Shown one piece after another: positions 1 to 25,741 of a DNA stretch of 33,775 nt. The DNA is taken from the NCBI GenBank assembly GCA_026413965.1, contig JAOAJY010000007.1, positions 1-33,775 on the forward strand, in the 5' to 3' direction. This stretch comes from Microcaldota archaeon. GTDB lineage: Archaea > Micrarchaeota > Micrarchaeia > Anstonellales > Anstonellaceae. The stretch's first letter is position 1. Each line of letters starts with the position of its first letter. The translations under genes were made by a program, and so were the position numbers. Below the pieces are notes generated by a model that was given only the letters and a program-made list of their open reading frames with translations, did no database searches and was not told the origin of the DNA.

Positions 1-1018
1 ATATTATCTTTATTAAGCCTCTTCCTATCTCAGCCAGATCCGCTCCAAATAGCGAGCCTGTCTGCCTCACAAATGTGAATGTTATTATCAGGCTAATCAT
101 AGGGTAAAAGACAACTTGGAGATAAAGCTGCTTTACAGCGTGCATCAAGGCAGCAGTGTCAATGTCTTTATCGGAGTTGGCTTTTGACTGGTATATCGCC
201 ATGCCCCTTGCGCCTGCGTTGTTGAAGCAAGGGTCGTCTCCCAAAAATTTCGCCCCGAACATCTGCCTGCTGAAATCGTTTGCTGTGTCTATGTGCGTGC
301 AGGCGTATTGGTTTGAAGGCATCATGGCGATGATGAGGACATAGGTCGCAGGAAAGACAAATCCAAACCCGAGTGCAAATGCAGTAAGAAGCCCTCCCAC
401 GCCGCGCGTTATGGGCAGGACTCTGAGTATCAGCCCAAGCGGAAGAAAAATCTGCAGCATTGTGTACTGGGAGAACTCCAGGACAAAATACTGGATATAT
501 TGGAAGAGCGAAAGATAAAACATATTCTGCATGGCAAATTTGCTGAAGCTCACATGCCCTGCCAAAAAGTATGACGGAGATATGCCCTCCACATTGCCGC
601 GGTTGAATCCAAAGCTGCTTATTCCCTCTAGCCAATAGTTTCTCACCAAGACAAAATCATAAATCGTTGACATGCATTCGATAGGCACTTGGAGGATGTA
701 CTCTTTTGCAAGCACAAAAGGGTCTGCCCTAAGGTCAGGGGGGATGTTGGTTATGCCAGTGTTTCCTGAAGCCGCAGCAAGCTGCGCAGCCAGGCTCCCC
801 AATACGTTCCCACCCACATTCACCATTGCGACCGCGCCAACTATTATCAGCGCAGTGGCTAAAACCTGCATATACTCTGATTTTGCGTAAAGCACCAGGC
901 TTTGCAGGCCAAAGGCTACGCCAAACATGTGCAGCAAAGCAGCCAACGACAAGGCTATGGCAGCAGCAAGAACGCAGATTCCAATCCATCCTCCCCAAAG
1001 AAGCACCAAGTCAGGCAT
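1..1018 (-). CDS. Polytopic membrane protein, VirB6/TrbL-like paralog 1 (3' end truncated by window edge; not in supplied ORF track)
   Basis: Manual minus-strand translation from ATG at 1018: MPDLVLLWGGWIGICVLAAAIALSLAALLHMFGVAFGLQSLVLYAKSEYMQVLATALIIVGAVAM...LPLGLILRVLPITRGVGGLLTAFALGFGFVFPATYVL...GSLFGADLAEIGRGLIKII, open through position 1. ATG directly abuts the stop of the upstream gene at 1019. Confidence 0.9.
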   Translation of the reverse strand, partial: MPDLVLLWGGWIGICVLAAAIALSLAALLHMFGVAFGLQSLVLYAKSEYMQVLATALIIVGAVAMVNVGGNVLGSLAAQLAAASGNTGITNIPPDLRADPFVLAKEYILQVPIECMSTIYDFVLVRNYWLEGISSFGFNRGNVEGISPSYFLAGHVSFSKFAMQNMFYLSLFQYIQYFVLEFSQYTMLQIFLPLGLILRVLPITRGVGGLLTAFALGFGFVFPATYVLIIAMMPSNQYACTHIDTANDFSRQMFGAKFLGDDPCFNNAGARGMAIYQSKANSDKDIDTAALMHAVKQLYLQVVFYPMISLIITFTFVRQTGSLFGADLAEIGRGLIKII

Positions 1019-2098
1019 TCATATCAGCCTCGTAAGATTGGACACATCAAGCTCATCCCCAAGCATCCGCGTCAGACCCCTGGCTATTTCCACAAGAACA
1101 ATGAAGTTTATCACTGGCAGCACAACTGCCCCCACCATATAAAGCGAAACAGGCTTTAATAGGAAAATGGTGGCGGAAGATGTTCCAGTTATCATATCTT
1201 GTATGTTCATCTGCCCCAAAGCATCTGACGGGTTGAGTTGCCCTATTTTCTTCAAATCCTCTGGATTATTCACATTCCCTGCCTCAATCTGCGCTTCTGC
1301 AATATTGGCGGCTTGCTTAAGCTCATCAAATACAGAATTGTATGTTGTTCTGGTCAGATAATCGTTGAAGACTAAGATAATTGGATAAAACAAAAAGAAA
1401 GACATGGCTATCCCGATTAGCGCGCCCCCAGCGCCTCTTGTGGGCTCAAATGCCCTGAAAAATATCCCGAAAGGAAATAGGTAAAACATGGACGCGTATG
1501 CCATATACTCCAGCATTCTCCTTTGCAAATCAAGAAGCAAAAATGAGGTGACAAATCCGCTCATGGCAAGAAAAATTATGGAGTTGAGCTGGCCAAGCGA
1601 ATCAAGCGGGTTGTCTGTGACGCCAAGGCCTAGCGGGCTGCTGAAATACGTCACTTTCTGGAAAAAGACAATCACTTTTGAGACGTACATGGCATAGGCA
1701 AAAATAAGATAGCCTATGCCTTTCATCCTCTGGAAGTATTCATCCACGATAATATACAGGTTTTTGCCCGTGTAGTCAATCCCTCTCACAGAGTCATTCA
1801 GGAAATCCATCTTGAATTCGCACATGCCCACGACCCAGACAATCAGGAATATGAAAACGGTTGCGGTGCCAAGGATTTGGAAAAGCTCGAACTTGCACCA
1901 GCTGGTGAGGCCCTGGTGGCGAAGGAAAAGCGCAAGCATGTAAATCAAAACAAGCGCCAAAAGCGAGCTTAAAAGCGCAAGGAAAGTGACTGTCCGCCAG
2001 TCTGCAAGCAAAACTCCGAAGGCTTCTGGAAAGGTTGGGTTTGCGCCAACCAGCGGCGCGCATGCGATTTCTGCAAGATGAGCCATAAAAATCCTCAT
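1019..2098 (-). CDS. Polytopic membrane protein, VirB6/TrbL-like paralog 2
   Basis: 359 aa ORF, multiple hydrophobic segments; motif FPFGIFFRAFEPTRGAGGALIGIAMSFFLFYP; C-term LGDELDVSNLTRLI; 4-bp ATGA overlap with upstream gene. Confidence 0.9.
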   Translation of the reverse strand: MRIFMAHLAEIACAPLVGANPTFPEAFGVLLADWRTVTFLALLSSLLALVLIYMLALFLRHQGLTSWCKFELFQILGTATVFIFLIVWVVGMCEFKMDFLNDSVRGIDYTGKNLYIIVDEYFQRMKGIGYLIFAYAMYVSKVIVFFQKVTYFSSPLGLGVTDNPLDSLGQLNSIIFLAMSGFVTSFLLLDLQRRMLEYMAYASMFYLFPFGIFFRAFEPTRGAGGALIGIAMSFFLFYPIILVFNDYLTRTTYNSVFDELKQAANIAEAQIEAGNVNNPEDLKKIGQLNPSDALGQMNIQDMITGTSSATIFLLKPVSLYMVGAVVLPVINFIVLVEIARGLTRMLGDELDVSNLTRLI

Positions 2099-3438
2099 AT
2101 GAGCTTCTCAAGAGCGCTCAGGTCAATTTCTGTCCCAAGCGCTTTGGTTATCTCCTTTGCGGCAGTGAGGCAGACGAAAAGTATCAAGATTGGGAGCAGG
2201 ATGCTGACCACAAAAACAAAAAACACAATCTCATACATGGATGAGAACATGAAGACTGCCATCACCGGAAGCAGGACTACCGTTATCCAGCTTAGGCCCA
2301 CATATTTCGCAAACAGGAAGTTAAGTCCTGCGACACCTCCAGCCAGTCCTGCAAATGTTGGAAGCCCCCAGCTTTGCACTACTGAAAGGAATGTGCCGTA
2401 TGTTCTTGCAAGGCCGGTGTTGAAAACGCAAATCGAGCCTCCCTGGAAAACTCCATGCAAAGACAGTATCACATTGCCAAGTATCACTCTTTCCTGCGAT
2501 ATTCGGTGGGACAGGTCGCTTCTCCAATTGTTTCCATTTGGCAAGAATGGCTCATCCCAGCTTGATGGAACAGCATCCGTGGGCGCGCAGCAGATCGGCT
2601 TTCCAGAAAGGCAGGCAGGCCAAATGTGCGGGGTGCTTGCCGCAAGCATTTCATTCACATAGTAGTCGCTGACCATCTGCCCTACGGCAATTATCATGAA
2701 AGGGTAGATGAAAAACAGGGAAAGCGCCATCCCAAGCAAAGCATTCCCTCCTGCTTTTATGCCGAAAGCCCTAAGAAAAAATCCAAGAGGCATCAGCAAA
2801 ATGAGCATGTCAGTCTTGATGAAGCACAGCAAAAACTCGTTGGCAGTCCAGGCAGCAACTGCCCCTGCCAAAAGCTGGACCATCATTCCAAGGCCGTCAA
2901 ATATGGGCCTGAACATTGGTGAGAGCTGGAAAGACAGCCCAAAAGCCTGGAATCCTGGTATTCTTATCTGTGGAGACTGCCTTGACATGAAAGAGAATAT
3001 GGTAGTCCCCACAATCACCATCCCAAAGTCAAAAGAAAGGGTGTTCCGTATCACTGATGAATACGCCCTGGCGGTGTCTATGTTGCGGATTCCGTATTCC
3101 CAAAGCCCTGCAAATGCGAGCGTGAAGATTGACAGAAGGCCTGCTGTCTCAAAAATCCCCCATAGCCCTCCTTTTATATAGTCGCTGTATTTTTGGATGG
3201 AGAATGCTCCGCTTAGTATCATGGCGGCGGACATGAAAAACACGCCCATCATAAGAGTGAGCCACGAAAGGGCTATCCAATGCATTGGGCTGCTGCTTGT
3301 CTGTATGCATGAATTTGCTTGGTTGGTCTTGAAAAGCTTCCCAAGCTCTGCGAAATCTATAGCATTGGTGGTTGCCATGAACGCAAAAAGCGAAAGAAAG
3401 AATGCGGCAAGAAATTTGGCTTTCCCAGGAGCCATCAT
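2095..3438 (-). CDS. Polytopic membrane protein with signal peptide, VirB6/TrbL-like paralog 3
   Basis: 447 aa; N-terminal signal-like segment AKFLAAFFLSLFAFMATTNA; motif LMPLGFFLRAFGIKAGGNALLGMALSLFFIYP; C-term LGTEIDLSALEKLI. Confidence 0.9.
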   Translation of the reverse strand: MMAPGKAKFLAAFFLSLFAFMATTNAIDFAELGKLFKTNQANSCIQTSSSPMHWIALSWLTLMMGVFFMSAAMILSGAFSIQKYSDYIKGGLWGIFETAGLLSIFTLAFAGLWEYGIRNIDTARAYSSVIRNTLSFDFGMVIVGTTIFSFMSRQSPQIRIPGFQAFGLSFQLSPMFRPIFDGLGMMVQLLAGAVAAWTANEFLLCFIKTDMLILLMPLGFFLRAFGIKAGGNALLGMALSLFFIYPFMIIAVGQMVSDYYVNEMLAASTPHIWPACLSGKPICCAPTDAVPSSWDEPFLPNGNNWRSDLSHRISQERVILGNVILSLHGVFQGGSICVFNTGLARTYGTFLSVVQSWGLPTFAGLAGGVAGLNFLFAKYVGLSWITVVLLPVMAVFMFSSMYEIVFFVFVVSILLPILILFVCLTAAKEITKALGTEIDLSALEKLI

Positions 3439-4757
3439 ATCAGCCTCGAGAGCAAGGATATCTCAACATCTCCTCCTATCAGCGGCGAGAAAACTTTGAA
3501 GGCAGACAAGGTCAGCATAAGCCCCACAAACGGAGTGAACAGGGTGAAAAACATCAAAGCTGCAAGATTTGCGATGGGCCCTTTCTTTCCAAACCTGCTT
3601 GTGTCGTTCTCAATCCCGCCAGTGTTTTTCATGATCTCGCCTGCCACATCAGAATGCAGCGCCTTCCAAACCAAACCAACTGCTCTAAGCACCATGTCTC
3701 CCCATGAATCTTTTTCTTCCTGTGTGGATGTGCCGCAAATATCTCCCAAGTTGGTAGGCTTGGAGAAAGCCTCAGCTCCGCTTGCGCCGCCAAAGCTCAC
3801 CGGTCCGCTTGCCCCAGGCACGATTGTTTTGTTTTGGTCCACTCTGTTTCCAAAAGTGCCTGGCGCATTCACCCAGCCGCCCATGAATCCGAACAATATA
3901 GCATCCATAAGAACATAAAACATCGGCAAAACCACATACAAAGCCAAACCCAACGCTATCAGCATGCCTCCAAGCTTTCTGCTGAAATGGAAAATCCTCA
4001 GAACCATCCCCAAAGCAAGCATGATGGGGAAGAATGCCGCGTAAAGGTAGTCCATAAAAACCTGCTGGACCCTCAGGAACATCATTGTCTTGAAAATCAA
4101 ATCCAGCATTATGGAATGGAATTCAGAGTGGATAGACAATCCGGCAAGCGGCCTTACGTGGGCATGCATTATATCCATCATCACTGGATTTTTCGTAGCG
4201 ATCGTGATGTTTGAAAGAAATGCGGCAAGCCAGTAGTTGAGAATATGGTATTGGGCCTGCTCTCTTGCGCTTTCAAACAATATCTGCAAATAGTCCTTGG
4301 CAATGGAAATGTGGCATGGGCTAAGCCGAAGGCTAGGCGGAGTAGCCGGGCATTCAATAAGCCAGTTCCCAGAAGAAGGCCTGCAGCAAACAACATTGTT
4401 TATGTAGCTGTTCCATTGGCTTGAAGGAGAAGCCAAGCTCACTATCTTGAGCCATCCATCCAGCGTCTGCAGAAGCAAAATGACTGCCACTATGATTATA
4501 GCCGAGTAAGCAAGCTGCCCAACTTCATGCTTTGCCCAAGCCCGCATCTGCTCGTCGCCAAGAAAGCTTGCAGCCATGTATGCCATCCAAATTATCAGCA
4601 CCATGGTGGCAAAAGCGATTCCAACCAAGCCCTCCCATCCCCAGCTTGTCCAGGCCGTGCTCCACTGGATATTTGGGGAGTTTGACACTGAAGCGCAGCC
4701 GCTAGCCAAAGCAAGGGCCGCCACGCCCGCAATCAGCAAAACTATATTTTTTCCCAT
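3435..4757 (-). CDS. Polytopic membrane protein with lipobox-like N-terminus, VirB6/TrbL-like paralog 4
   Basis: 440 aa; N-term MGKNIVLLIAGVAALALASGC; motif LALGMVLRIFHFSRKLGGMLIALGLALYVVLP; C-term IGGDVEISLLSRLI. Confidence 0.9.
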   Translation of the reverse strand: MGKNIVLLIAGVAALALASGCASVSNSPNIQWSTAWTSWGWEGLVGIAFATMVLIIWMAYMAASFLGDEQMRAWAKHEVGQLAYSAIIIVAVILLLQTLDGWLKIVSLASPSSQWNSYINNVVCCRPSSGNWLIECPATPPSLRLSPCHISIAKDYLQILFESAREQAQYHILNYWLAAFLSNITIATKNPVMMDIMHAHVRPLAGLSIHSEFHSIMLDLIFKTMMFLRVQQVFMDYLYAAFFPIMLALGMVLRIFHFSRKLGGMLIALGLALYVVLPMFYVLMDAILFGFMGGWVNAPGTFGNRVDQNKTIVPGASGPVSFGGASGAEAFSKPTNLGDICGTSTQEEKDSWGDMVLRAVGLVWKALHSDVAGEIMKNTGGIENDTSRFGKKGPIANLAALMFFTLFTPFVGLMLTLSAFKVFSPLIGGDVEISLLSRLI

Positions 4758-4758
4758 A

Positions 4759-5670
4759 CTACCCCAGCTTCTGGCTGAAAAATTTGGAAAGCCCTTTTAT
4801 GAACGTTACGGTTATTATCATGGATAGCGCAGGCAAAAACAGCGCCTGCAAAAGCAGGAAAGACATCGCAATAAGCGGCGTAAAAAGCAGTGTCTGCACA
4901 TCAAACAGCCCCTGTTCAATAACGGAAAAAACGCTAAGCTTGTCATGCCCCAAATCATGAAGCTGCTGCGAAAAGGTCCTTTCAAGCCCAGCCTGGGCTA
5001 TCTGCCTCTCCACGATGTCTTTGTGCATGACATAAGTATAAGGATAAACTATCTGAAAGCTTATTGCAGAAGCAATAAGGAATGCTCCTGCGTCTCTTGT
5101 CGGCGGGAATATCCTCATGACCACTCCTGCAGGAAGGACAAACGGAATGGCAATTCCTCTTATTGTTTCAATCATTATCCTTTGCACCATAAGGCTGGCG
5201 CTGAACGGAGTGACAAGTATGAGCAAAAAATCCACCACCCTCTCAAGCAGCACAAAAGAAGGAAATCCTGGCACTGAAATGCCCCAGACTGTGACCCCCC
5301 ACCTGAAGCTCATAGAGCCCCAAAACTGGACAAACATTTTGGTTGATTCCAGGGCAATCACTGCCTTTATCATCACAGTGTCAGACAAAAAGTTCAGGTA
5401 AGAGGTGGATATGTCAAATGGGTCGCCTCCTGCAAAAAGCTCAGCCATCCTGCAGGAGAACTCAGATGCCCCAAATATGCTTATCAGAAGGATTGCGGAG
5501 ACTAGCAGCTGGTGCGATTCAATTGAGACAAAGCTTTCGTATTCTGCCTTTCTCAAGAATTGGGCAATCATCCAGAACAAAGCCAAGAATAATGCCATAA
5601 TAGAAAGGGACACTGCTGCCATTGTCTGCACAGTCCCAATCATTTCAGGCAGTTGCGCGCAGTACATCAA
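4759..5670 (-). CDS. Polytopic membrane protein, VirB6/TrbL-like paralog 5
   Basis: 303 aa; motif VLPAGVVMRIFPPTRDAGAFLIASAISFQIVYP; same operon spacing. Confidence 0.9.
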   Translation of the reverse strand: MMYCAQLPEMIGTVQTMAAVSLSIMALFLALFWMIAQFLRKAEYESFVSIESHQLLVSAILLISIFGASEFSCRMAELFAGGDPFDISTSYLNFLSDTVMIKAVIALESTKMFVQFWGSMSFRWGVTVWGISVPGFPSFVLLERVVDFLLILVTPFSASLMVQRIMIETIRGIAIPFVLPAGVVMRIFPPTRDAGAFLIASAISFQIVYPYTYVMHKDIVERQIAQAGLERTFSQQLHDLGHDKLSVFSVIEQGLFDVQTLLFTPLIAMSFLLLQALFLPALSMIITVTFIKGLSKFFSQKLG

Positions 5671-5674
5671 ACCA

Positions 5675-7039
5675 CTATACCATCTTGCTTATGCCCATTA
5701 TCCTGGGCTCTCCCCCAATCATTCCAGAAAAATCTTTGTACAGAGTAAGAGTTATCACAATCTCAACCACAATAAAAAGAGAAACCAGCACCATCTGCTT
5801 GCCAATGTCCATCACCAGGAATTCAAACTGATTATATAGGTTGAGCACATCCGAGAAACTGAAAAATGAATTGTTTACCCCTTCCATAAGCCTTGCTTGC
5901 TCCAATGAAGCCAGCCTTTCCCTCTCTCTTAAGGCATCCTTTTGCCTTGCCTCCGCTTTGCTTCCAGGCTGGCTTGATTCAATCGCCCTATTTTTCTCCT
6001 CTTGGTACCTTTTTGTCCTTTCTATCTCCTGCTCAATGCTTCTTTCAACCAATGCTTGATTGGAGCGCCAATCAGTGCTTCCGCAAAATTTCAGCGTGGA
6101 TTTGTATTTGTGGATGTTGCCTATGGCTGATTCGCATTTTCCGGTGCAAAGCCCTGAGCAGCACTGCGCATCCTGGGTGCAAGGCTCTCCGTCTTTAAGC
6201 AAGCCCTGCGGGCATTGGGGGTTCGCAAGCGCATTGTAGATTTGGGCGTTCACCAGTATGCTTAGCGGATATATGAAGTAAGCGGCAAATGAGAATGCGA
6301 CAATCGTGGAGCCTGTTTTGCGCGTGAAGGGAAACGCCCTCATGACCAGCCCGAGCGGAAGTATCACTGAAGGCACGCTTGTTTGGACAAAAACAAGAAG
6401 CATTTTTTGGACAAACACAGAGGCTATAAGCGTCCCAACAATGTCTGTGAGCATGGTGTTTGCTTCATTTATGGGATTCAAAACAACCCCAAACAAAAGG
6501 TTCTCCACAACCAAATCAATAGGGAACACATTGAGAGGCTTTGGGACATTCGCAGAGAATCCGAATGTCGAAATGAAGCCGGTGGCTATCTCATACCCCA
6601 TCAAATTCATATAGGCGTCCACCAGGTTGGGCAGAAGGATGCCTTTCGGCCGGCTTCCGAGGATTCCCAGGCTGAAATAGTCCGTCCATTCCTCCGCGTT
6701 CATTCTGCATCCAAGAAAATACTCGGCCTGCTTGAAGGCGAAATTGGCATTGGGGCTTGTTTCAGGGCATGCAGGATGCGGAGGATGGGGCGCAAGCCCT
6801 TCCCCGACCTTGTCAAACAAGCTGCCAGGGGTTACAAGCACAATGGCAAGCAAGACTATAACGGCAGTGACTCCAAGCTCCCGCAGCTCCTGTTTCCCGT
6901 ATGCTTTCAGAGAGGGCATGGAAAAAAATTCCGCTGCCATCCAAGCAAGGGCAATGCTCAAAGCGGTGAATAGGAATGCCGATATCAAAAGGGGTTCGGA
7001 AAAGAAATTAGGGTATGCGAAGCTTATGAAATCTATCAT
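5675..7039 (-). CDS. Polytopic membrane protein with Cys-rich insert, VirB6/TrbL-like paralog 6 (first gene of operon)
   Basis: 454 aa; motif LPLGLVMRAFPFTRKTGSTIVAFSFAAYFIYP followed by CPQGLLKDGEPCTQDAQCCSGLCTGKC; C-term IGGEPRIMGISKMV. Confidence 0.9.
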   Translation of the reverse strand: MIDFISFAYPNFFSEPLLISAFLFTALSIALAWMAAEFFSMPSLKAYGKQELRELGVTAVIVLLAIVLVTPGSLFDKVGEGLAPHPPHPACPETSPNANFAFKQAEYFLGCRMNAEEWTDYFSLGILGSRPKGILLPNLVDAYMNLMGYEIATGFISTFGFSANVPKPLNVFPIDLVVENLLFGVVLNPINEANTMLTDIVGTLIASVFVQKMLLVFVQTSVPSVILPLGLVMRAFPFTRKTGSTIVAFSFAAYFIYPLSILVNAQIYNALANPQCPQGLLKDGEPCTQDAQCCSGLCTGKCESAIGNIHKYKSTLKFCGSTDWRSNQALVERSIEQEIERTKRYQEEKNRAIESSQPGSKAEARQKDALRERERLASLEQARLMEGVNNSFFSFSDVLNLYNQFEFLVMDIGKQMVLVSLFIVVEIVITLTLYKDFSGMIGGEPRIMGISKMV

Positions 7040-7101: not shown

Positions 7102-10100
7102 ATGAGGGTGCCTGCATCCTTGCCCTTATTCTTCTTGCTGTTAGTTCTGCCTATTTCGCATTCCATCAACAATCCTGAGGATTGGAGCTTTAAGACAATA
7201 ATAACCGTCATATCCCAATCAGAATACAACATCACTGCAAAAATAACTTATTTCAACCTAAGCTATTTCAGCAAGTTCAACCAAGAAGAGATAAAAAGGG
7301 AGCCATTCAGGCTGGATCCGAATAAAAAAACCTCTTTTGATTACGTGAGCACAGGCTTCTTTCCGCTGAATGATTCGCCAATCTTTTTCACCTTTGAGGG
7401 GAGGAATGTCTCTTTGGATGGCTCCAGCCCAGCATGCAATCCCTCAATCTCTGATGCTGATGGAAAGGTGGAATGCCGCTTCACGTACTACCAGAATGAA
7501 TCAGGCGGCTTTGTCCCCATGGAGCAGCGGACAAGCTGCGGAACTTTGACATTAACCTACAAGGGCGAATTCAGAGGATCAGATGAGTACAAGCCTTCAA
7601 GCGCGTCACTGGTCATCTGCCCAAGGAACAATGCGGCAATTTCTGCGCTTGGGCCCGCCCTAATCTCAGCAATTGGCTCGCCATCAAACATCGGGGTGTG
7701 CCTTCCAGCCTTGGTTTTGAGCGGCCTTCTGATAGCGTCCATGTATTATTCAGGAAGGAACCCTCTTTCGCTTTTTGACTTGACCACTCCGCGCCTTCCA
7801 AAAACCAAGCATGCGCGCATATCAGGCGGAAGCACTGCTATGGCGATAAGGACAGCAGCCACAAGATACATGCAAGCAAAAAAGAAGGCGCAGAAAGAGG
7901 CGACAAACCTTCTCAAAAAAATCGCAAGGAAAAGCGGCAAATCATGGGGAGAAAGAAGGAGGGCAAAAAAAGAATTGAGCAAGCTGTTTGAAGATCTGGA
8001 TGAGGAGCTAAAGAAAAATCCAAATGGCCTCAATGAGAATACGCTCAACAATTACCGGATGAGGCTTCATGACATTTTCTCAAAATACGGGCTTCCCAGG
8101 GATGAGGAGCACAAGAATTTCAGGAAACTTTATGGAAGATACCACACTCTCGTTTTCAATCTCTTCAACACTTTTTATCTTTCAGATGTGGCAATGAAGC
8201 AGATGTCCTCCACTCGCTCTCCAGGGGGCGGAAAGTTCAAGAAATGGCTGGACAAGAAGCAAGCCGCCCTGACAGAAAAGCTTGTTTCATTTGAAAGCGG
8301 GCTACAAAAAATACCAGGCTACAAGATATTGAGGTTCACCCCTCTGCTTTATCCGCTCAGCCTTCCCAAAGCCGTGCTTGATGTGATTGCCCAGAGGCGC
8401 TCGGCAAAAGCCTATGCCAAGGCAGTCCAGCGCAGGATTCTGGGCCATGTTCCCTATGTTTTGCTTACCAGAAAAGTCAAAGATGGAGTGGGCGAGCGCG
8501 AGCTGAATTGGCTGGGCGAGCAAACCAAGAAGCTGTTTGACAAAGGCCCTCTAAAGTGGTGGGCAAACTACTTTGACTGGAGTTTTGATGGCTTCATTGA
8601 AAGGCACAACATCCACATGCGGCAGGCGGTCCATCTTTTTGATGCCGATTCAAAATACGCAAGGCAGCTTGCGGAAGCCATGAACACAGCGTCAGTCCTT
8701 GCCCTCCGCGAAATAATGGAGATGGAGCTTGCGATGCATAACATGCTTGCTGAAAAGAAAAAAATGCTTGAAATGATGAAAGCCTCCGCTTCCAAAAGCA
8801 AGCTTGCTGCTGAATTTGAAAAGATAGAAAACCATCTTAAAGAAGCGCAGGCAGGCAATACTAACCTTCTTGATGTTTGCAGGATGCTCCAAAAGCACGG
8901 AGACGCAAAGCAAAAAGCCATGCTTGCTGATTTCGAAACCAAGCTGAAGCAATTTGGCAGCGATTATCAGGCAATAAGGCAGATGGAGCAGAAAATAATG
9001 GCGGAATACGGAATATTCATGAAATTGCAAGGGCTATATTCTGATCTTACTTTTGACAATCTCAGAGATATCGCAAGGAAAGCAGAATTCGATGCGGTGG
9101 AGAATGCAAGGAAGCGCGGAGTAGTTGTGGCAAAAAGCGAAGAGTACATAAGAAGCAATCGCGCGGAAATAGAAAAGGCGATTGAGAATGCCCTTCCAGC
9201 CGCCATGCTCAAAAGGCTGGGCCTATCAGGCTCTGCCCTCTACAGCATAATACTCAAGGACAGGTCCAACGACCAGAAGGAAAGGGCAGAAGCAGAGGCA
9301 GAATTCAGGAACCGCGTCCTCAAGCCCATAATTGGCAATAGGATAAGCCAGCTTAATCTGGAGATAAATGAGGAGGGGCAACTCACAAGGCAGGGCATAC
9401 TGAGCAAATATGTTGAAGCTGTGGAGGCGCTTGGCAAGAAGGCCAATCCAAACGGCCCGGTCATTGGCAAAGACCCAGCAGGAACTATCCTGTTCAGCCA
9501 TTTGGAAAGCCTTGCCAAAGCCACAGGCAGCCCTGAGCTTCTGAAGTTTTTCCAGCAGTGCAAAATTGAGAACATCAGCGATTTTGAGACTCTTTATGCG
9601 AAAGGAGCAAGCAACCGCGAGCTTGCCCGCCTCCTCACCGCTGCGATAAACAGCGCAAGAGACGACACTAATGGCATAAGAAGGATTGCTGAAGTCCTCG
9701 CAGTGGGCATGAAAACAGTTGAAGGCGTCCACAGGGAGCTTTTGGCGATTCTTGAGAATAGGGCAAAGATTGCAAACGGCCTGGCAAGGCTAAGCGAAGA
9801 GGAAATCCAGAAATTATGCGCCCGGGTAGGTGTGCGCCCAGACCCGCACACAGGCGCAAGGCCATCTGTGGATGAGATAATTGAAGGGCTAAGCAGGCTT
9901 CCTGATGAGAAAGTCTCAGACAGATGGAGGCTTAAGAGCATAAGCCGCAAGCTTGGTGTTTCGGTGCAGGAGCTCCAGGAAAGCTCCATCCTGAGCTTCA
10001 CCATGGTTAAGCTTCTTGAAAAGACCCAAGTCGGAATTGAAAAGTGGGGGGCAAAAATACTCTCATCAGGAAAAGCCGGCTCTGAAAGCGATTTCAGGCA

Positions 10101-13100
10101 GGATTTCAAGAATTACGTTGGCGCGCACCAAGCGTTCGAATATGCTGCTCTTCGCAAAAAATTCAACTTCAACCAATACGAAGGAGAAATGGCGCAGCAC
10201 ATTGAGACAATGCTTTACATGATAAGAAGATACAACAAGGGAGCCGAATTTGCGCTCACAAAGGCTTTGAACGAAAATGTGAAGAAAAAAAGCGGAGCTG
10301 ACATCTACCTGTCCAACAACGCAGGCGGGCTTCTTGGAAGCTATGAAAGCGTTTTCAAAAACACCGTGTATGCGTTTGCGGCTGAGCGGGTGTTTTACAA
10401 AAACATCACCAGCCCAGAATCAAAAGCCTATGACAAGTCGTTTGCTAAGAAGATGTCTGATTTTGGGGCGAAAGCTGGAGAATTTGATGCTGCCGCCTAC
10501 ATGGCGCTCCAGTCCCGCGGGATTCTTTTCAGGGACATAAAAAGAGTGCCATACTCGCTCACAGCCGACAATTCCGGCGCAATTCCGCTTTTGGAGTTCG
10601 ACTCAAGATATGCAGTCAGCAAAGACTTTCTTTTGCGAAAAGACGCCAATATCAAGAAAGGCAGCATAGAGAATCAGCAAGACTATGGGCCTCTGCTTTC
10701 ACGCATGAGGGTTTCTGACTTTGGAAGCGAAATCATAGGCCTTGTCGCTGTGCGCAACCAAGGGGATGAGCACCATGAGCACTGGCACAAAGTGAATCCA
10801 GCGGACATAAAGGGCCTGAACACAATCTTCATGGGCTCCAGAGCCGAGCCTTCAAAGCGCGGGATTTACTCCAACGCAATAGCAGGGCTGGATGCTGAGG
10901 GTAACAGAGCATCAAAGCCCATCCTCAGATTCCTCCAAAATTCAGATTACGTGGAAAATCATCTGGGCAAAGGCTGGCAATTCTACCATCGGACCATGGA
11001 GAGGATAGGCGCATTCAGCTACATGCTGATGTACGATGACCTGAAAAACTCAAGCTACTGGTACGCTGCGCAGGCAAGAGCCAGGCATGCGCTCTACGAG
11101 CTTGCCCGCGTCGCCTCCAATTGGATGACGCCTGGGGCGAATCGCCTGGACCCAGAAAAGCTTTTTGAGGCAAACGAGTTTTATCAGAAATTTGACCCGA
11201 ACTTCAGCTATGACAAAAAGAGGATGCTTCAAACTCTGATGTCCGAGCTTGAAGACCTTGGGACTCTTAAGAATGGAAAGAAAAAGTCAGAGGTTCTAAG
11301 AGAGCTCATCTTGAAGATGGGCGACAATCCAAAAGCAGAATGGCTTAGGAGAAATTACGCTTACATCAACAAAGAAGCAGCCGGGTTTGAGTCGATAGCT
11401 TTTGGAGCGAAGATGGGGATAGAAGCCCTCAAGGAGATGTACGCAAAAAACATGATTGACAAGGCGCAGTTCGACAGGCTGTCTATCCAATTCAGGGAGA
11501 TTCAAAAGATGGCTCAGGCTGACTTCAAAGCCTCAGCAAAGATGTATGAGGAATTCAACAAGGCAGTGATTGGCTACACCGGAAGCCACAGCCCGCACAC
11601 GTACTACGGAAGCGTCCGGAACATATTTACCATGTCTGGGCTTTTCCCAGCATTTGATTTCAAGCAAGGCTTCATCCCAGGCTTCTTCATGTCCATAGAA
11701 TCGACTGCGATGAGGGATGCTGACTACAACCGAGGAGGCAGGAAAGGAGCGGAGTATTACGAAATGATGAACATGAACACAGGGCAGGGGATATACGAGA
11801 ATCCGCGCTGGTGGGCTGCCTCTATTTATGAGCAAAGGATGATTCTTCCGCTGATGTTTGCCCACTTTGTCCACAGGACGTTCTTGCCTCTTGCGGCAGG
11901 TTTCTACAGAAGCCAAATCGGGCTGTCATCATATTTGCAGAGGACCGAAATTGAGACAGAGTGGGGCAAGCCAAGGGTGCATCTTCTCTGGCTTCTTGGT
12001 TTGGGCAGGGGCACAAACGACATATTGGGGGCAACTGTGCAAGAAGTCAGCGACTTCACCGGCGTGTCTGATGCGCTGGCTGCTCTTCGCAAGATAAAAA
12101 GGGTAGAGATAGACAAGGACGGCAATGTTTATGCAGAGCAATCGCCTGTCTCAAAGTTTGTCCAAAGATGGGCAGTTGAAAGCAAGCATGTCAATTCCTC
12201 ATCGCAGTGGGCTTTCCAAAACAGGATTCAGGACAGGCTTCTTAGCTCAAAAGAATGGGCAGACAACCAATCGCTTGTGTATAGGAACGGGGAAAAGATT
12301 TATTACAATCCAAATGACTTGTCAGCCGAATTCTCGGTTGGCAGGCCAAGAGATGAAAACTACAAGGAAATGAGGATAAGAGACGCAGTGTCCATGTGGC
12401 CTCAGCTGTTTGATGCCTCCAGATTCTCCAAAGGAGCTGAAAAGGAGGTTTATGAGCAGCGCCTGCGCGAGCTTGAAGGATACCTGAACCCATTCGCATC
12501 AAAAATAATTGATGAGAGGCCTGAAGGAAACCAGCTTAGCCGAGGAGTTGGCAGCTTCTTCAACAAGGACGGCTCGCGTGACAGGTTCATGGAGATATTC
12601 CAGCGCGACCATGCGAACACATGGAGGCAGGTCATACCTGGAATGACTGAAGTCGATCCTGAAGGCAACGTTTTCATATCCGCAACCACAGCGCACTACT
12701 ATGAGAGGGGCGACAGCGGGCGAATGAAGCTGATGAAAGACATGTACTCGGTTGGCTACAATGAGGCTGAGGACCGCTTCTTCCTATTCAACCAGGTTGA
12801 TACCCACCGGGACGCTTTCCGAGACACCATGCGCCTGGACACTCCTGCCATGATGCAGCTTCTCAAGTTCCAAAGCTATGTCATGCGGTACGAGATGTTC
12901 AAGCCTATAACTTCCTCGCTGCGCTCAGCTGTTCCTTTCGGATTGGGCGATTGGGCATATGAGAAAATCCAAAGCAGGAAATCATGGACAAGCCTTTCCG
13001 AATCCGAAAGGCAAAGCGTCAATGCCCAGCTGGAGCGGTATGGGGCAAATCTGGATTATGTTCAGGAGATGCTCAACAGGAAAGCCCACAATTGGCACTA

Positions 13101-13278
13101 TTTCCAAGAGGAAAAAGAACGGCTGGGGGTAAGGCCGCTTGCAAAGATTTACAACCGCTATGTTGAAAGGATGCGCTGGATTGCTCTTGCAAGCACCGAG
13201 CAGCAAAGGAACATCAACGTCATGCGCAGGCAGAGGCTGCTGCATGAGTTGGATGTGGGAGAGGAAGAAGTGGTATAA
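7102..13278 (+). CDS. 2058-aa protein: signal peptide, ~170-aa external N-domain, one TM, very large helix-rich cytoplasmic region
   Basis: Single uninterrupted ORF; N-term MRVPASLPLFFLLLVLPISHS; N-glycosylation sequons in the N-domain; hydrophobic segment IGVCLPALVLSGLLIASMYY; then K/E/A-rich sequence. No family recognised. Confidence 0.92.
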   Translation: MRVPASLPLFFLLLVLPISHSINNPEDWSFKTIITVISQSEYNITAKITYFNLSYFSKFNQEEIKREPFRLDPNKKTSFDYVSTGFFPLNDSPIFFTFEGRNVSLDGSSPACNPSISDADGKVECRFTYYQNESGGFVPMEQRTSCGTLTLTYKGEFRGSDEYKPSSASLVICPRNNAAISALGPALISAIGSPSNIGVCLPALVLSGLLIASMYYSGRNPLSLFDLTTPRLPKTKHARISGGSTAMAIRTAATRYMQAKKKAQKEATNLLKKIARKSGKSWGERRRAKKELSKLFEDLDEELKKNPNGLNENTLNNYRMRLHDIFSKYGLPRDEEHKNFRKLYGRYHTLVFNLFNTFYLSDVAMKQMSSTRSPGGGKFKKWLDKKQAALTEKLVSFESGLQKIPGYKILRFTPLLYPLSLPKAVLDVIAQRRSAKAYAKAVQRRILGHVPYVLLTRKVKDGVGERELNWLGEQTKKLFDKGPLKWWANYFDWSFDGFIERHNIHMRQAVHLFDADSKYARQLAEAMNTASVLALREIMEMELAMHNMLAEKKKMLEMMKASASKSKLAAEFEKIENHLKEAQAGNTNLLDVCRMLQKHGDAKQKAMLADFETKLKQFGSDYQAIRQMEQKIMAEYGIFMKLQGLYSDLTFDNLRDIARKAEFDAVENARKRGVVVAKSEEYIRSNRAEIEKAIENALPAAMLKRLGLSGSALYSIILKDRSNDQKERAEAEAEFRNRVLKPIIGNRISQLNLEINEEGQLTRQGILSKYVEAVEALGKKANPNGPVIGKDPAGTILFSHLESLAKATGSPELLKFFQQCKIENISDFETLYAKGASNRELARLLTAAINSARDDTNGIRRIAEVLAVGMKTVEGVHRELLAILENRAKIANGLARLSEEEIQKLCARVGVRPDPHTGARPSVDEIIEGLSRLPDEKVSDRWRLKSISRKLGVSVQELQESSILSFTMVKLLEKTQVGIEKWGAKILSSGKAGSESDFRQDFKNYVGAHQAFEYAALRKKFNFNQYEGEMAQHIETMLYMIRRYNKGAEFALTKALNENVKKKSGADIYLSNNAGGLLGSYESVFKNTVYAFAAERVFYKNITSPESKAYDKSFAKKMSDFGAKAGEFDAAAYMALQSRGILFRDIKRVPYSLTADNSGAIPLLEFDSRYAVSKDFLLRKDANIKKGSIENQQDYGPLLSRMRVSDFGSEIIGLVAVRNQGDEHHEHWHKVNPADIKGLNTIFMGSRAEPSKRGIYSNAIAGLDAEGNRASKPILRFLQNSDYVENHLGKGWQFYHRTMERIGAFSYMLMYDDLKNSSYWYAAQARARHALYELARVASNWMTPGANRLDPEKLFEANEFYQKFDPNFSYDKKRMLQTLMSELEDLGTLKNGKKKSEVLRELILKMGDNPKAEWLRRNYAYINKEAAGFESIAFGAKMGIEALKEMYAKNMIDKAQFDRLSIQFREIQKMAQADFKASAKMYEEFNKAVIGYTGSHSPHTYYGSVRNIFTMSGLFPAFDFKQGFIPGFFMSIESTAMRDADYNRGGRKGAEYYEMMNMNTGQGIYENPRWWAASIYEQRMILPLMFAHFVHRTFLPLAAGFYRSQIGLSSYLQRTEIETEWGKPRVHLLWLLGLGRGTNDILGATVQEVSDFTGVSDALAALRKIKRVEIDKDGNVYAEQSPVSKFVQRWAVESKHVNSSSQWAFQNRIQDRLLSSKEWADNQSLVYRNGEKIYYNPNDLSAEFSVGRPRDENYKEMRIRDAVSMWPQLFDASRFSKGAEKEVYEQRLRELEGYLNPFASKIIDERPEGNQLSRGVGSFFNKDGSRDRFMEIFQRDHANTWRQVIPGMTEVDPEGNVFISATTAHYYERGDSGRMKLMKDMYSVGYNEAEDRFFLFNQVDTHRDAFRDTMRLDTPAMMQLLKFQSYVMRYEMFKPITSSLRSAVPFGLGDWAYEKIQSRKSWTSLSESERQSVNAQLERYGANLDYVQEMLNRKAHNWHYFQEEKERLGVRPLAKIYNRYVERMRWIALASTEQQRNINVMRRQRLLHELDVGEEEVV

Positions 13279-16007
13279 TGGTTAAAAAGCACTTATTCCT
13301 CCTTTTCTTATCCCTTCTAGCCTCAGGCTGCGCTCTTTATGACTACCGCACAGGAGATCCATTGCCAGGCTCGCTTAACGTGACTGAGCTTAGCGATGAC
13401 ATAAATGGAAGCAGGATTGTCTGCAAGGAGCTGCCAGGACCTCATCCTTGCTACTGCGTGCTTTGCGAAAACAAGACAAGCTGGGACCTGGGGATACTGA
13501 ACTTCCTCAACCCGTTTTTCGATTCCAGTCTGAAGGGCGGGAACTGCAGCATTTCGCACTGCAACATCTCCACTGCGGTTCAGGTCATAAAAGAGGATGA
13601 AAACGTCCAGCTTAGGACCTTCATGCTTGGCCACGGCCCTACCTTCACAGCAGGCGACTTGTCCAACATATATTGCAACTACTCCAATCAGCTGGCGGTG
13701 ACTTGGCTGTTGGGGGCAAATGGGATTCCGCCTCAGGTCCCGCAATCAAAGAGGGCTGCCTGCTGGCTGGAGCGCAACATCATCCCTATTTACATATACA
13801 ATACGCAAGGGACTGCGATAGACCCTGCACGCACCGGCCAAATAGCCTCTGCCCTTGCTGACGCAGGGCCTGTGATAATCACAAGCGAAATCAATTTCAA
13901 CTCCTCTGATGCTTCTGCCGTGCAGGCAGTTAAGCAGCAAATATACCAAATAAAAAGAAACTGCCCAAAATGCCTAAGCGTCCTTGCGGTCAAAAGCGGC
14001 GATTTGGAAGGGGTGCGCGCGGTTTTGGAAGACCCCTCTCCATCATATGGCGGGAAAAACATATCCAGCCTTGTGGATTTGGTCGGTTTTGGGTTTCTTG
14101 CGAATGATTATCCTGACTGCAATGTCAATAGGATAATAGGCTACAATCTTGCCTTCTCGCGCTTCATTTTGAGGAACTACTCCAAGCCGACCATTTGGCT
14201 TTATGTCGGCGCAAGCGAGGGGGGCAACGCCAATGGCGTCTGCACATTTTCCCCAGGCGCTGTCCGAGAGTTTTACCAAAGCCTTTTCACAGGAATCCAA
14301 GGGTTCGCAAGCTCGGGCGTAATCGGGATGGCGTTTTATGAGTTTTCAGACAGGTCAGGGCCGCTTCCTTGTCCAGAAGGCAGAGGCTGCGAATTTGGGG
14401 TATTGTCCTCAAGCGGCTTGCAGAAGCATCCGCACATAAACACCTGGGCAGAGCTTTGCAGATACTATACGCAGGTGGATTACCGAAGCCCGCTTGTTTT
14501 TTCCAGGAATGCGCAAGGGATAGTGTGCGATTTTCTGCAAAACTGGAAGATGTATCAGATAGCGTCAGTGGAGGTCAACACCAATCTTGGTCTAAGCAAT
14601 GAGCAGGTTATTCCGCTTCCGCGCAAGAAAAAGCTTCACTGCGGGGAGATTTGCGTATCTGACATTCCGCTGCAAAAGCCAGACATATACAACTCATACC
14701 AAGGCGCATCTTTCAGCGGCTCATGCTCACGCTATCCTGCAATTGAGGATTATTCTGATGATTTTGAGATAAGCTCGGTTTATATGCGGGCTCTTATACA
14801 GCAGGAGTCTGGGTTTGACCCATGGGTGGTCTCCTGCAGCCCCACGCCTTGCAACATACCCGCAAACACCACCATGGACCAGCTTTGCCAAATGGCAGGC
14901 TATTCTTCTGGCTGCTCTGCTCACACTTTGAACAGGGACAATGACAAAACCTGCCCGCCTTCTGCTCCATACTTTTGCGCTATGGGGTTGGCGCAATGCA
15001 CAAGGCCCCCAGGCGATTCCTTGCTCTCGCGCGAGTGCGCAGGAGGGTCAAGCTACGACCCATTCAATGCGTCTCAAAGCATCTGCTGCGGTGCGCGTGA
15101 GCTTAGGCAGAGGCTAGCTCAGGCAGACTCCTTCCTGCAAGCCAACTGGGAAAAGCTTTCTGAATGCCCATACGGGATGACTCAAGACGAGTATGGTTGG
15201 GCAAAATACTATCTTGCAGCCAATATGTATTACGGAGGGCCTGCCATCCAGCACCTATCCTCATTCCTTTCCCAGAGGGATGCGAATGGGAAATGCTCAG
15301 GGCAGCAGCATTACATAAAGTATCTGCGGGAGTCATTCACACGCGAATCCATTCCAGGGCTTCGCGACAGCGAATATGGGGCAAAGCAGCTGACCATTTA
15401 CCTTGACGCATTGGGCGACTGCCAAAGCGACTGCCCGGGCGCGATTCCAGGAGGGCTAGCAGTAGGAGAGACAGGGGATATGAGGATATTTGGGCATTCT
15501 TTGGCGCAAGAGTCCTTCAAAGGAAAAGAAGCCCAGGTCCAGCAGATGCTTTCTGAAAGAGGCGTCCGGATAACCGTGAATCCGACAATATCGCGCAGCG
15601 GGCAGACAATAGCCGAAACCACAAACAACGTGAGAAATGCAGGGCAGCACAAGGCAATAGTCCTTTACACTGGCGCAAATGACTTGCACAGAAGCGAGGA
15701 GGAGATAAAATCTCTTTTCAGCAATCTTTTTTCCGAGGCTTCAAGAAAGGCTCAGAAGGTGTATGTCTTCAACATAATAGAGTTTGGAAGCCAGGCGCAG
15801 TGGGCAAAGATATCCAGAATCAACTCCTACTTGCGGAACTACGCCAGCTCCAACAGCCAAAAATTTGTCCTGATTGACATAAACCAGCACATGAGCACCC
15901 TTGGCCCAGGCTGCCCGTACCGCTCAGGCAATATCCACGGCTGCTATGTGCAGACAAGGGAATTTTTTGTGCAGAAGGTGGCTGAAAATCCGCCATCTCC
16001 AGCATGA
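13278..16007 (+). CDS. 909-aa secreted/lipoprotein-like multidomain protein: unassigned possibly glycosidase-like region, SLT-type lytic transglycosylase domain, C-terminal SGNH/GDSL-like hydrolase
   Basis: TAATG overlap with upstream gene; N-term LLFLSLLASGC lipobox; SLT-like ALIQQESGFDP...CAMGLAQ...DPFNASQSICCGARELRQRL...KYYLAANMYYGG; SGNH-like RIFGHSLAQ...VLYTGANDL...GNIHG. Confidence 0.9.
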   Translation: MVKKHLFLLFLSLLASGCALYDYRTGDPLPGSLNVTELSDDINGSRIVCKELPGPHPCYCVLCENKTSWDLGILNFLNPFFDSSLKGGNCSISHCNISTAVQVIKEDENVQLRTFMLGHGPTFTAGDLSNIYCNYSNQLAVTWLLGANGIPPQVPQSKRAACWLERNIIPIYIYNTQGTAIDPARTGQIASALADAGPVIITSEINFNSSDASAVQAVKQQIYQIKRNCPKCLSVLAVKSGDLEGVRAVLEDPSPSYGGKNISSLVDLVGFGFLANDYPDCNVNRIIGYNLAFSRFILRNYSKPTIWLYVGASEGGNANGVCTFSPGAVREFYQSLFTGIQGFASSGVIGMAFYEFSDRSGPLPCPEGRGCEFGVLSSSGLQKHPHINTWAELCRYYTQVDYRSPLVFSRNAQGIVCDFLQNWKMYQIASVEVNTNLGLSNEQVIPLPRKKKLHCGEICVSDIPLQKPDIYNSYQGASFSGSCSRYPAIEDYSDDFEISSVYMRALIQQESGFDPWVVSCSPTPCNIPANTTMDQLCQMAGYSSGCSAHTLNRDNDKTCPPSAPYFCAMGLAQCTRPPGDSLLSRECAGGSSYDPFNASQSICCGARELRQRLAQADSFLQANWEKLSECPYGMTQDEYGWAKYYLAANMYYGGPAIQHLSSFLSQRDANGKCSGQQHYIKYLRESFTRESIPGLRDSEYGAKQLTIYLDALGDCQSDCPGAIPGGLAVGETGDMRIFGHSLAQESFKGKEAQVQQMLSERGVRITVNPTISRSGQTIAETTNNVRNAGQHKAIVLYTGANDLHRSEEEIKSLFSNLFSEASRKAQKVYVFNIIEFGSQAQWAKISRINSYLRNYASSNSQKFVLIDINQHMSTLGPGCPYRSGNIHGCYVQTREFFVQKVAENPPSPA

Positions 16008-21206: not shown

Positions 21207-22163
21207 TCAGGAAGCCTGCTTCTTTATGCGCATCAGGTTCTCCAGCCTTTTTGCAGTCAGGGGGTGGGTCATCAGAAGCTCAATAGCGCCTGCGCGCTTC
21301 TCCTTCTCAATTGCCTCGGCAAGCGCTGCCTCGTTTCCTGAGCTGATTGCCCTTGCGATTTCATGGGCATCCAGCTTTGCGCTTGATGGCTCGGAGAAAT
21401 AAAGAGCCTTGACCATTGAGCCTTGGTCAAATTTCCCAAAGTAGCGCCCATAGGATATTTTGGCAAGCGCGGTCATAAGCGCATTCGGATTGGAGGTGAG
21501 CCTTGCGGAGAATTCATCTGCCGCATACTCCCTTTGCCGCGAAAGCCACATGACCATAAGCTGCCCTATGAACTGAGCCACGAAAGCCCCCACAATCGTG
21601 CCTATCCCCGGCCCCTCATCCCTTCCTCTTGGAGAAAATATCAGCACGCCGTAGTAAAGAAGCACAGGCAATACGCTTGCCACTGTCATCACAGCAACGT
21701 CTCGGTTGTTTATGTGCCCAAGCTCATGCGCCATCACGCCCTCTATTTCCTGCTTGTCCAATACAGAAAGCAGGCCCGTATGGACAGCTATGCCTGAGTC
21801 AGACTGGGTTCTTCCGAAAGCGAAAGCATTCGGGGATGGGTCCTTGACAAGGTAAAGCTTGGGCATGGGCAGCCCTGCTTTCTTTGACAGCCTCTGGACC
21901 ATCTCAAAAAGCTCAGGGGCATCCTGCTGCCTGAGCTCTTTTGCACCAGTCGCCAATTTTATTATGCTGGGCCCAAGCCACCACTGCACAGCAGTCATGG
22001 CGAACGAGACAATCAGCCAAAAAAGTATGCTCCCTGTCCCAGCAATTCCTGTATAATGCAATATAGCGCCTATCAAGGCTGTTATGACTCCAAACACCAG
22101 CACAGTCGTGAGCAATATCCTGATTTTCATTCCCCATCCTGGGTTAAACCGTGCCTGCTCCAT
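21207..22163 (-). CDS. htpX: HtpX-like M48 zinc metalloprotease, membrane
   Basis: GVMAHELGHINNRD (HExxH), SRQREYAADEFSA, THPLTAKRLENL; start MEQARFNPGWGMK at 22163 preferred. Confidence 0.93.
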   Translation of the reverse strand: MEQARFNPGWGMKIRILLTTVLVFGVITALIGAILHYTGIAGTGSILFWLIVSFAMTAVQWWLGPSIIKLATGAKELRQQDAPELFEMVQRLSKKAGLPMPKLYLVKDPSPNAFAFGRTQSDSGIAVHTGLLSVLDKQEIEGVMAHELGHINNRDVAVMTVASVLPVLLYYGVLIFSPRGRDEGPGIGTIVGAFVAQFIGQLMVMWLSRQREYAADEFSARLTSNPNALMTALAKISYGRYFGKFDQGSMVKALYFSEPSSAKLDAHEIARAISSGNEAALAEAIEKEKRAGAIELLMTHPLTAKRLENLMRIKKQAS

Positions 22164-22218
22164 TCTCCCACCTCCAAAAAAAAGATGCATCTTATCTTTT
22201 TCTTTAAATCGTATTGCC

Positions 22219-22232
22219 AAATATATAAGCTT
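22219..22232 (+). promoter_or_regulatory. TATA-like promoter for a probably leaderless wHTH gene
   Basis: AAATATATAAGC about 20-25 nt upstream of ATG at 22245. Confidence 0.5.
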
Positions 22233-22244
22233 TTCTTGCCGAAA

Positions 22245-22874
22245 ATGGAGCCTGGCTCCTTGCCTCCAAAAAGCAGCTATAAAAACCTGAACATGCTTCA
22301 TACACTCATGCAAGAGGAAGAAGTGGATGGAGGGCAGGAAGAGGAGCAAGCCGCCAAAGAGGCTTACAAGCCATCAATTGCATCGCGGGGGATTCCTTCC
22401 AAAGACTCGCTCTACCTGCCTCCGCACAATTCCCCAGAGCTTCGCTCTTTCCAGGACAGCGGGGAAAATCCGACCAGGAATGTGTGGAGCCTGGAGGAAG
22501 TGGTGAATTTTGTCTTCCCGAAAAAGTACCAGCAGAAATACAACGAAATTGCCCTCTCTTTCCTTAGGCTCTGCCTTGAGAAAACCACGCTTTCCGGCGA
22601 GGAAATCGGCAGGTTCGTCTCAAGCAGCGGCATCTCAAAAGCCACATTCTACAACCGCGTCCTTCCTCGCCTCAAAAGAATAGGCATGCTGAAGGTGGAA
22701 AGGCAGACTGTGATTGCGCTGGAAAGCAAAAGGAAATTCCGCCCGATGATAATCTCCATCTCAAAAACTTTCGGCAATTACCTAAACAAAATTGGCGATT
22801 CTTGGCTGGCAATCGTGGATGATGCCCGCTCAAGAAAGCGGGTGGAGGAGCGGACAGGCGGCTTGCAAAAATGA
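22245..22874 (+). CDS. Winged-helix-like DNA-binding protein
   Basis: SGEEIGRFVSSSGISKATFYNRVLPRLKRIGMLKVERQ resembles a wHTH; start MEPGSLPPKSS. Confidence 0.6.
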   Translation: MEPGSLPPKSSYKNLNMLHTLMQEEEVDGGQEEEQAAKEAYKPSIASRGIPSKDSLYLPPHNSPELRSFQDSGENPTRNVWSLEEVVNFVFPKKYQQKYNEIALSFLRLCLEKTTLSGEEIGRFVSSSGISKATFYNRVLPRLKRIGMLKVERQTVIALESKRKFRPMIISISKTFGNYLNKIGDSWLAIVDDARSRKRVEERTGGLQK

Positions 22875-25649: not shown

Positions 25650-25741
25650 ATGTTATTATTTTACCACAATACCTATAAAAGCATATGCCTACTTTTCGCA
25701 AAGCTTTAAATTCACTTCTTTCCATAAATTAAAACATGTTC

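Follow-up and report, generated by a model that had tools for sequence, protein, structure and literature searches.

A Conserved Array of Six VirB6/CedA-Like Membrane Proteins in Micrarchaeota: A Candidate Hetero-Hexameric Channel

Organization of the Locus

The window analysed here is a stretch of 33,775 nucleotides, contig C26 (JAOAJY010000007.1; assembly GCA_026413965.1) of a 770-kb metagenome-assembled genome (MAG) in 28 contigs that is approximately 87% complete. The genome belongs to the phylum Micrarchaeota, which is named Microcaldota in the current NCBI taxonomy. Between positions 2 and 7039, on the minus strand, the window harbors exactly six tandem open reading frames (ORFs) for paralogous polytopic membrane proteins (Table 1). 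Their family is found in most genomes of the phylum, where it occurs as either one gene or six genes in a largely fixed order, and some of its members match CedE, a VirB6-like protein. These proteins probably form the hetero-hexameric, VirB6/CedA-like channel of a machine related to Ced and to type IV secretion systems (T4SS), with one subunit contributed by each gene.

The six genes are tightly packed, with intergenic gaps from position 1 to position 6 of 4, 1, -4, -4, and 0 nt, and the true start of the position-2 gene is probably the ATG directly 3' of the listed TTG, as judged by inspection. A previous analysis of the same DNA, hereafter the sequence-only reading, had counted at least six tandem paralogs, a number that the continuation of the array now fixes at six. 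Contig C28 joins the window via an exact 77-bp overlap and completes the stop codon of position 6. Since the genes that come next on C28, on the same strand, are SecF- and SecD-like (recognised by eye) rather than a seventh copy, the array count is exactly six. Linkage to SecDF was considered as a functional clue; it is confined to the genus of the window (loci L034, L043, L045, and L046, from gene position and length) and was not used.

Table 1. Coordinates of the array and of other genes in the window
Feature	Position	Strand	Length (aa)	Motif	C-terminus	Remarks
Position-1 VirB6/CedA-like subunit	5675..7039	-	454	PLGLVMRAFPFTRKTG	IGGEPRIMGISKMV	Cysteine-rich insert
Position-2 subunit	4759..5670	-	303	PAGVVMRIFPPTRDAG	FIKGLSKFFSQKLG	
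Position-3 subunit	3435..4757	-	440	ALGMVLRIFHFSRKLGG	LIGGDVEISLLSRLI	
Position-4 subunit	2095..3438	-	447	PLGFFLRAFGIKAGG	LGTEIDLSALEKLI	4-bp overlap with position 3
Position-5 subunit	1019..2098	-	359	PFGIFFRAFEPTRGAGG	LGDELDVSNLTRLI	4-bp overlap with position 4
Position-6 subunit	2..1018	-	339	PLGLILRVLPITRGVGG	GADLAEIGRGLIKII	Stop codon straddles window edge
Giant partner	7102..13278	+	2058	SGRNPLSLFDLTTPRLP		Transcribed divergently from array
Lipoprotein-like protein	13278..16007	+	909			Sub-threshold SLT transglycosylase (VirB1-like) and GDSL-like stretches
M48 family metalloprotease	21207-22349					
M48 family metalloprotease	25736-26656					

Mutual Homology of the Six Proteins

All-versus-all phmmer and BLASTP comparisons have revealed approximately 20-24% identity over long stretches for nearly every pair of the six proteins; for the weakest pairs, 2-4 and 3-4, the similarity is carried by profile comparison. 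Mutual similarity of their hidden Markov models had been set beforehand as a test of paralogy, and in hhalign of position-wise profiles each pair obtained a probability of 99.9-100, with E-values from 1e-33 to 1e-44; between the six positions and single-copy homologs from other loci the probability was 99.7-99.9. The similarity among the paralogs is more than shared hydrophobicity, because SecD and SecF controls obtained probabilities <1 in the same comparison.

The three motif features that the sequence-only reading had noticed among the six proteins, an N-proximal segment, a central signature and a characteristic C-terminus, are real. The residues conserved across the family are an N-proximal E, G-x3-R, TR, G, and P. 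All six positions retain the same core helices and motif, each has a distinct C-terminal signature, and the sizes of their inserts vary greatly. Each position is on average 20.0-20.8% identical to the remaining ones, so that no position is an odd one out. In the position-1 protein, the cysteine-rich insert CPQGLLKDGEPCTQDAQCCSGLCTGKC (residues ~275-304) precedes the last helix and has a weak knottin-like Pfam resemblance. A toxin reading of the omega-toxin/conotoxin Pfam matches of this protein (E 0.05-0.15) was dropped, and the segment is taken as a cysteine-rich insert of the extracellular type.

One Gene or Six

A profile built from the six proteins matched 39 of 39 genomes in a first search that included the genome of the window. 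At the level of the class it matched 93 of 117 genomes, and at that of the phylum 178 of 196. To establish how many genes make up an array, family members were counted in stop-to-stop frames of the regions fetched around profile matches, an array being considered intact if over 1.5 kb separated it from each end of the fetched stretch. These regions were picked by their matches and not randomly; nothing in that choice favors six. The 65 intact arrays comprise 52 of six genes, a further six-gene array in which one gene is split, and 12 of a single gene; none has two to five or more than six. Every shorter multi-gene array reached the end of its stretch, and three arrays of families f13 and f17 (L123-L125), which were cut by the fetched stretch, are outside the census. 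The split gene, at position 5 of locus L079 (9807-10878), was seen as two ORFs in one MAG, owing to a frameshift or an assembly error.

Two sextets per genome are common in the order to which the window belongs. The genome of the window has one complete array, and its contig C2 (L204) ends within the first gene of a second sextet, downstream of the same genes that precede the second array in its relatives. The single-gene version, together with genes for a VirB2-like protein, a membrane protein of ~270 residues and an ATPase, was found at loci L074-L077, L120, L129, and L192-L195, and in some genomes it is co-resident with a sextet.

The identity of the six positions is preserved between genomes. 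A FastTree phylogeny was built from 428 proteins, encoded by 69 six-gene arrays and 14 single-gene entries; in it, the clades of positions 1 to 6 hold 66, 66, 69, 66, 68, and 69 of their 69 members, respectively, with supports of 0.83-0.995. Most single-copy proteins (13 of 14) form a clade of their own (support 0.97); the 14th entry (L187), which lies at a contig edge, groups with position 6. The position-4 clade also contains three intruders, namely the second genes of the divergent f13/f17 sextets, which suggests that these arrays have been reordered or are fast-evolving. In 18667 of 25740 comparisons a protein had its best match in a protein of its own position, where chance would give one in six, and gene order is conserved over many families. 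The six position clades across families thus indicate six one-to-one subunits that have been kept in order. In a smaller tree each position clade is divided into two branches, one for cluster 1 and one for cluster 2, from which it follows that all six genes were duplicated together.

Relationship to VirB6 and CedA

CedE is a paralog of CedA in Saccharolobus and has been termed VirB6-like (PMC11868833). In 23 Micrarchaeota genomes, all 14 matches of the NCBIfam CedE model fall inside arrays (E 1.5e-6 to 0.03), and three genomes devoid of the family yielded no match. Among 14 control genomes, that of Sulfolobus acidocaldarius alone was matched. A scan of 34 family members also returned CedE as the top NCBIfam family (E 2.5e-4). 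The matched genes are all outside the genome of the window, whose membership runs through family homology; Pfam and NCBIfam scans of its own six proteins gave nothing above chance. As for structure, a profile search of the PDB with position 2 found no match, and Foldseek with a model of the same protein (predicted local distance difference test score, pLDDT, 73) returned VirB6 of R388 (TrwI) as a leading match, with a probability of 0.84 and template modeling (TM) scores of 0.39/0.43.

Linked Pilin and ATPase Genes

The neighborhoods of the arrays bring in further T4SS-like components. In family f16, two VirB2-like genes, the sextet, two genes for membrane proteins of ~270 residues and an ATPase gene follow one another. 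The sextet, two ~270-residue genes and the ATPase gene are also contiguous in f13/f17. A single family member with the same partners is found in f21, where the ATPase gene is contiguous, and, in other genomes, as their second system. The ~270-residue protein encoded before the ATPase was considered as a VirB4 N-terminal part; it is without a database match, and that label is our inference only.

VirB2-like genes adjoin sextets in f16 and in some f7 genomes, as well as 10 of the 14 single-gene entries. These neighbors match TrbC (PF04956, 1e-4 to 2e-5) and T4SS_pilin, and the sole PDB match of their profile is TrwL/VirB2 (E 0.26). The ATPase matches CedD (5e-19), CedB (5e-18), and VirB4 models. 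All 23 genomes tested that have the family also have a close homolog of it; among three genomes without the family, two gave no match and one gave weak generic HerA-like matches alone. In the genome of the window, the ATPase gene (C11:23341-24858) and the VirB2-like genes (C11:52275-53331) are both unlinked to the sextet. Tandem arrays of several small VirB2-like proteins were observed at L112 (G000:C11:52275-53331) and at G034:C15:194655-196112. Relaxase PF03432 had no match in 12 genomes, other relaxase families not having been searched.

Giant Protein, Lipoprotein, and Other Genes

Divergently from the array, the window encodes a giant protein whose N-terminus is signal-like and is followed by an ectodomain, a hydrophobic segment, SGRNPLSLFDLTTPRLP, and a large helical C-terminal part. 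Related proteins adjoin 25 of the 69 six-gene arrays, and the conserved motif of their family, located after the hydrophobic segment, is of the type SGRNPLSxFDxTxPRLP. The family has no Pfam match above cut-off. In the window and at L034, L036, L043, L045, and L081, its members range from ~400 to 2100 residues and have a signal peptide.

The next gene codes for a lipoprotein-like protein whose N-terminal part is common to proteins encoded beside other sextets. Transglycosylase activity is that of VirB1 in bacterial T4SS. The SLT stretch as a VirB1 counterpart is suggestive only, in an archaeon that presumably lacks peptidoglycan. Further along, the window also encodes two M48 family metalloproteases.

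Models for the Channel

As the family comes as one gene or six, in fixed order and with equidistant members, a six-place ring of specialised subunits is the simplest reading. The idea of a hetero-oligomer, raised in the sequence-only reading, is strengthened by the one-or-exactly-six rule combined with strict position-wise orthology. One ancestral channel gene would have given rise to six, the single-gene system keeping the ancestral one-product ring. In the cytoplasmic membrane, each gene product would occupy one of the six places of a hetero-hexameric ring, as part of a chromosomal Ced/Ted-like machine, and the stoichiometry would rather likely be 1:1:1:1:1:1. This ring might sit above a hexameric VirB4/CedB-like ATPase acting as its driver, and below VirB2-like pilins, the giant protein and the lipoprotein being possible cell-surface and cytoplasmic accessories. 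In bacteria, VirB4 assembles into a central hexamer (PMC9259494). In its full form, the proposal is that of an obligate pseudo-sixfold hetero-hexamer of VirB6-like subunits, of which many genomes would possess two rings (twelve genes) in addition to a single-gene, homomeric version; this is plausible, with the balance evenly poised.

Several observations weigh against the hetero-hexameric, VirB6-like channel. The main argument is that the solved VirB6 of R388 is a homopentamer (PMC9259494), a precedent that a hexamer breaks. The matches to CedE are weak: they fall far short of the curated cut-off and chiefly cover the central motif region. The Pfam VirB6 and TrbL models match no family member, and hhalign with VirB6 of IncW/IncN plasmids gave a probability <1, the same as for the SecD/SecF controls. 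Such a negative profile result might be expected, since CedA and TedA themselves are 13% identical and their relation required HHpred (PMC9905601). With the model of position 6 (pLDDT 83; predicted TM score 0.76), Foldseek placed VirB6 at rank 31 with a probability of 0.30, and in the order of the window the ATPase gene does not adjoin the sextets. The initial guess of a VirB6/TrbL/CedA protein is now supported by the CedE match and the VirB2/ATPase context, the Pfam VirB6/TrbL models being silent; the two Foldseek searches, that with position 2 and that with position 6, leave the fold support equivocal. The VirB6/CedA assignment is supported by the CedE sequence match and by gene context.

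It is unlikely, in our estimate, that each variant instead forms a homo-oligomeric channel or adaptor of its own, serving different substrates, partners or growth states, in an operon kept by co-regulation. This would agree with the homopentameric state of known VirB6 (PMC9259494), with the presence of single-copy homologs in the same genomes as sextets, and with insert sizes that differ greatly by position. However, separate homo-oligomers predict the occasional loss or gain of a copy, whereas intermediate or larger numbers are absent among the intact arrays, and they do not readily fit an order conserved over many families.

Less likely still is a hetero-pentamer of classical fivefold symmetry built from five of the positions, with the sixth as an accessory that might, for instance, recruit pilins or cap the channel. 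Fivefold symmetry is that of R388 VirB6 and of conjugative pili (PMC9259494), and Rickettsiaceae with five tandem VirB6 proteins have been described (PMC7648143). Against this, the even identities reported above single out no position, and core helices and motif are common to all six.

That the array specifies a non-T4SS polytopic transporter or envelope-remodelling complex, its resemblance to CedE and VirB6 being due to chance among helical membrane proteins, is very improbable: the lack of Pfam and plasmid VirB6 profile matches and the weak position-6 Foldseek result would suit it, but the CedE matches are confined to arrays (14/14), and VirB2-like and CedB/VirB4-like genes are contiguous with the arrays or single genes in several families of genomes.

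Possible Function

The hetero-hexameric machine would transport DNA or protein to or from a partner of the cell or its surroundings. Its main job may be DNA import or exchange, a tentative assignment to which protein export and exchange with a host are alternatives. DNA import or exchange is favored over mobile-element conjugation because of the kinship with Ced/Ted and the absence of PF03432 relaxase matches in the 12 genomes searched. In Microcaldus ARM-1, a cultivated member of the Micrarchaeota, cryo-tomography has revealed a barrel-like envelope structure that docks host nanotubes (PMC11329633); to equate the sextet products with this barrel is pure speculation.

If the model is correct, six specialised subunits can together make up a T4SS channel ring. 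Such a ring would exemplify evolution from homomer to heteromer, with the single-gene ancestor type persisting within the phylum and, in some cases, within a genome that also has a sextet. A machine found in 178 of 196 genomes would also offer these ultra-small, host-dependent archaea a possible route for the exchange of DNA, proteins or metabolites, a question of long standing in DPANN biology.

Comparison with Known Systems

No prior description of a T4SS in Micrarchaeota was found in the open-licence PMC literature. A close likeness is to two DNA-exchange systems, Ced of Sulfolobales and Ted of Thermoproteales, archaeal and T4SS-derived, in which polytopic VirB6-like proteins (CedA, CedE, TedA) are joined by a VirB2-like pilin and by an ATPase of the CedB/CedD/VirB4 type (PMC9905601, PMC11868833). 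The CedE matches of the arrays and the missing PF03432 relaxase extend this likeness. Unlike Ced, which has CedA, plus its paralog CedE in Saccharolobus, the Micrarchaeota have six ordered paralogs that are often unlinked from the ATPase. We know of no Ced counterpart of the giant and lipoprotein partners, and, to our knowledge, the giant protein has none in Rickettsiales either.

In another DPANN lineage, the nanohaloarchaea, giant SPEARE-like surface proteins bearing VirB4/TraG have been proposed as components of a type IV secretion-like system (PMC10266531). In contrast with the Micrarchaeota, giant protein and ATPase are there a single fusion; the portions of that report consulted mention no VirB6 array. 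VirB6 of R388 is similarly a polytopic helical channel or stalk protein encoded next to VirB2- and VirB4-type genes, but there one gene yields a homopentamer (PMC9259494), and its profile similarity to the six Micrarchaeota proteins is undetectable.

The rvhB6a-e genes of Rickettsiales, finally, are likewise VirB6 paralogs arranged in tandem; their products have long extra domains, and they are conserved order-wide in a host-associated lineage (PMC2653234, PMC7648143). They differ from the Micrarchaeota set in being bacterial, in numbering four or five, and in lying beside virB3/virB4. They constitute an exception to the statement of the sequence-only reading that bacterial T4SS normally have one VirB6 (PMC7648143, PMC2653234), and, because Rickettsiales carry four to five of them in tandem, they indicate that paralogous VirB6 sets can be stable (PMC7648143).

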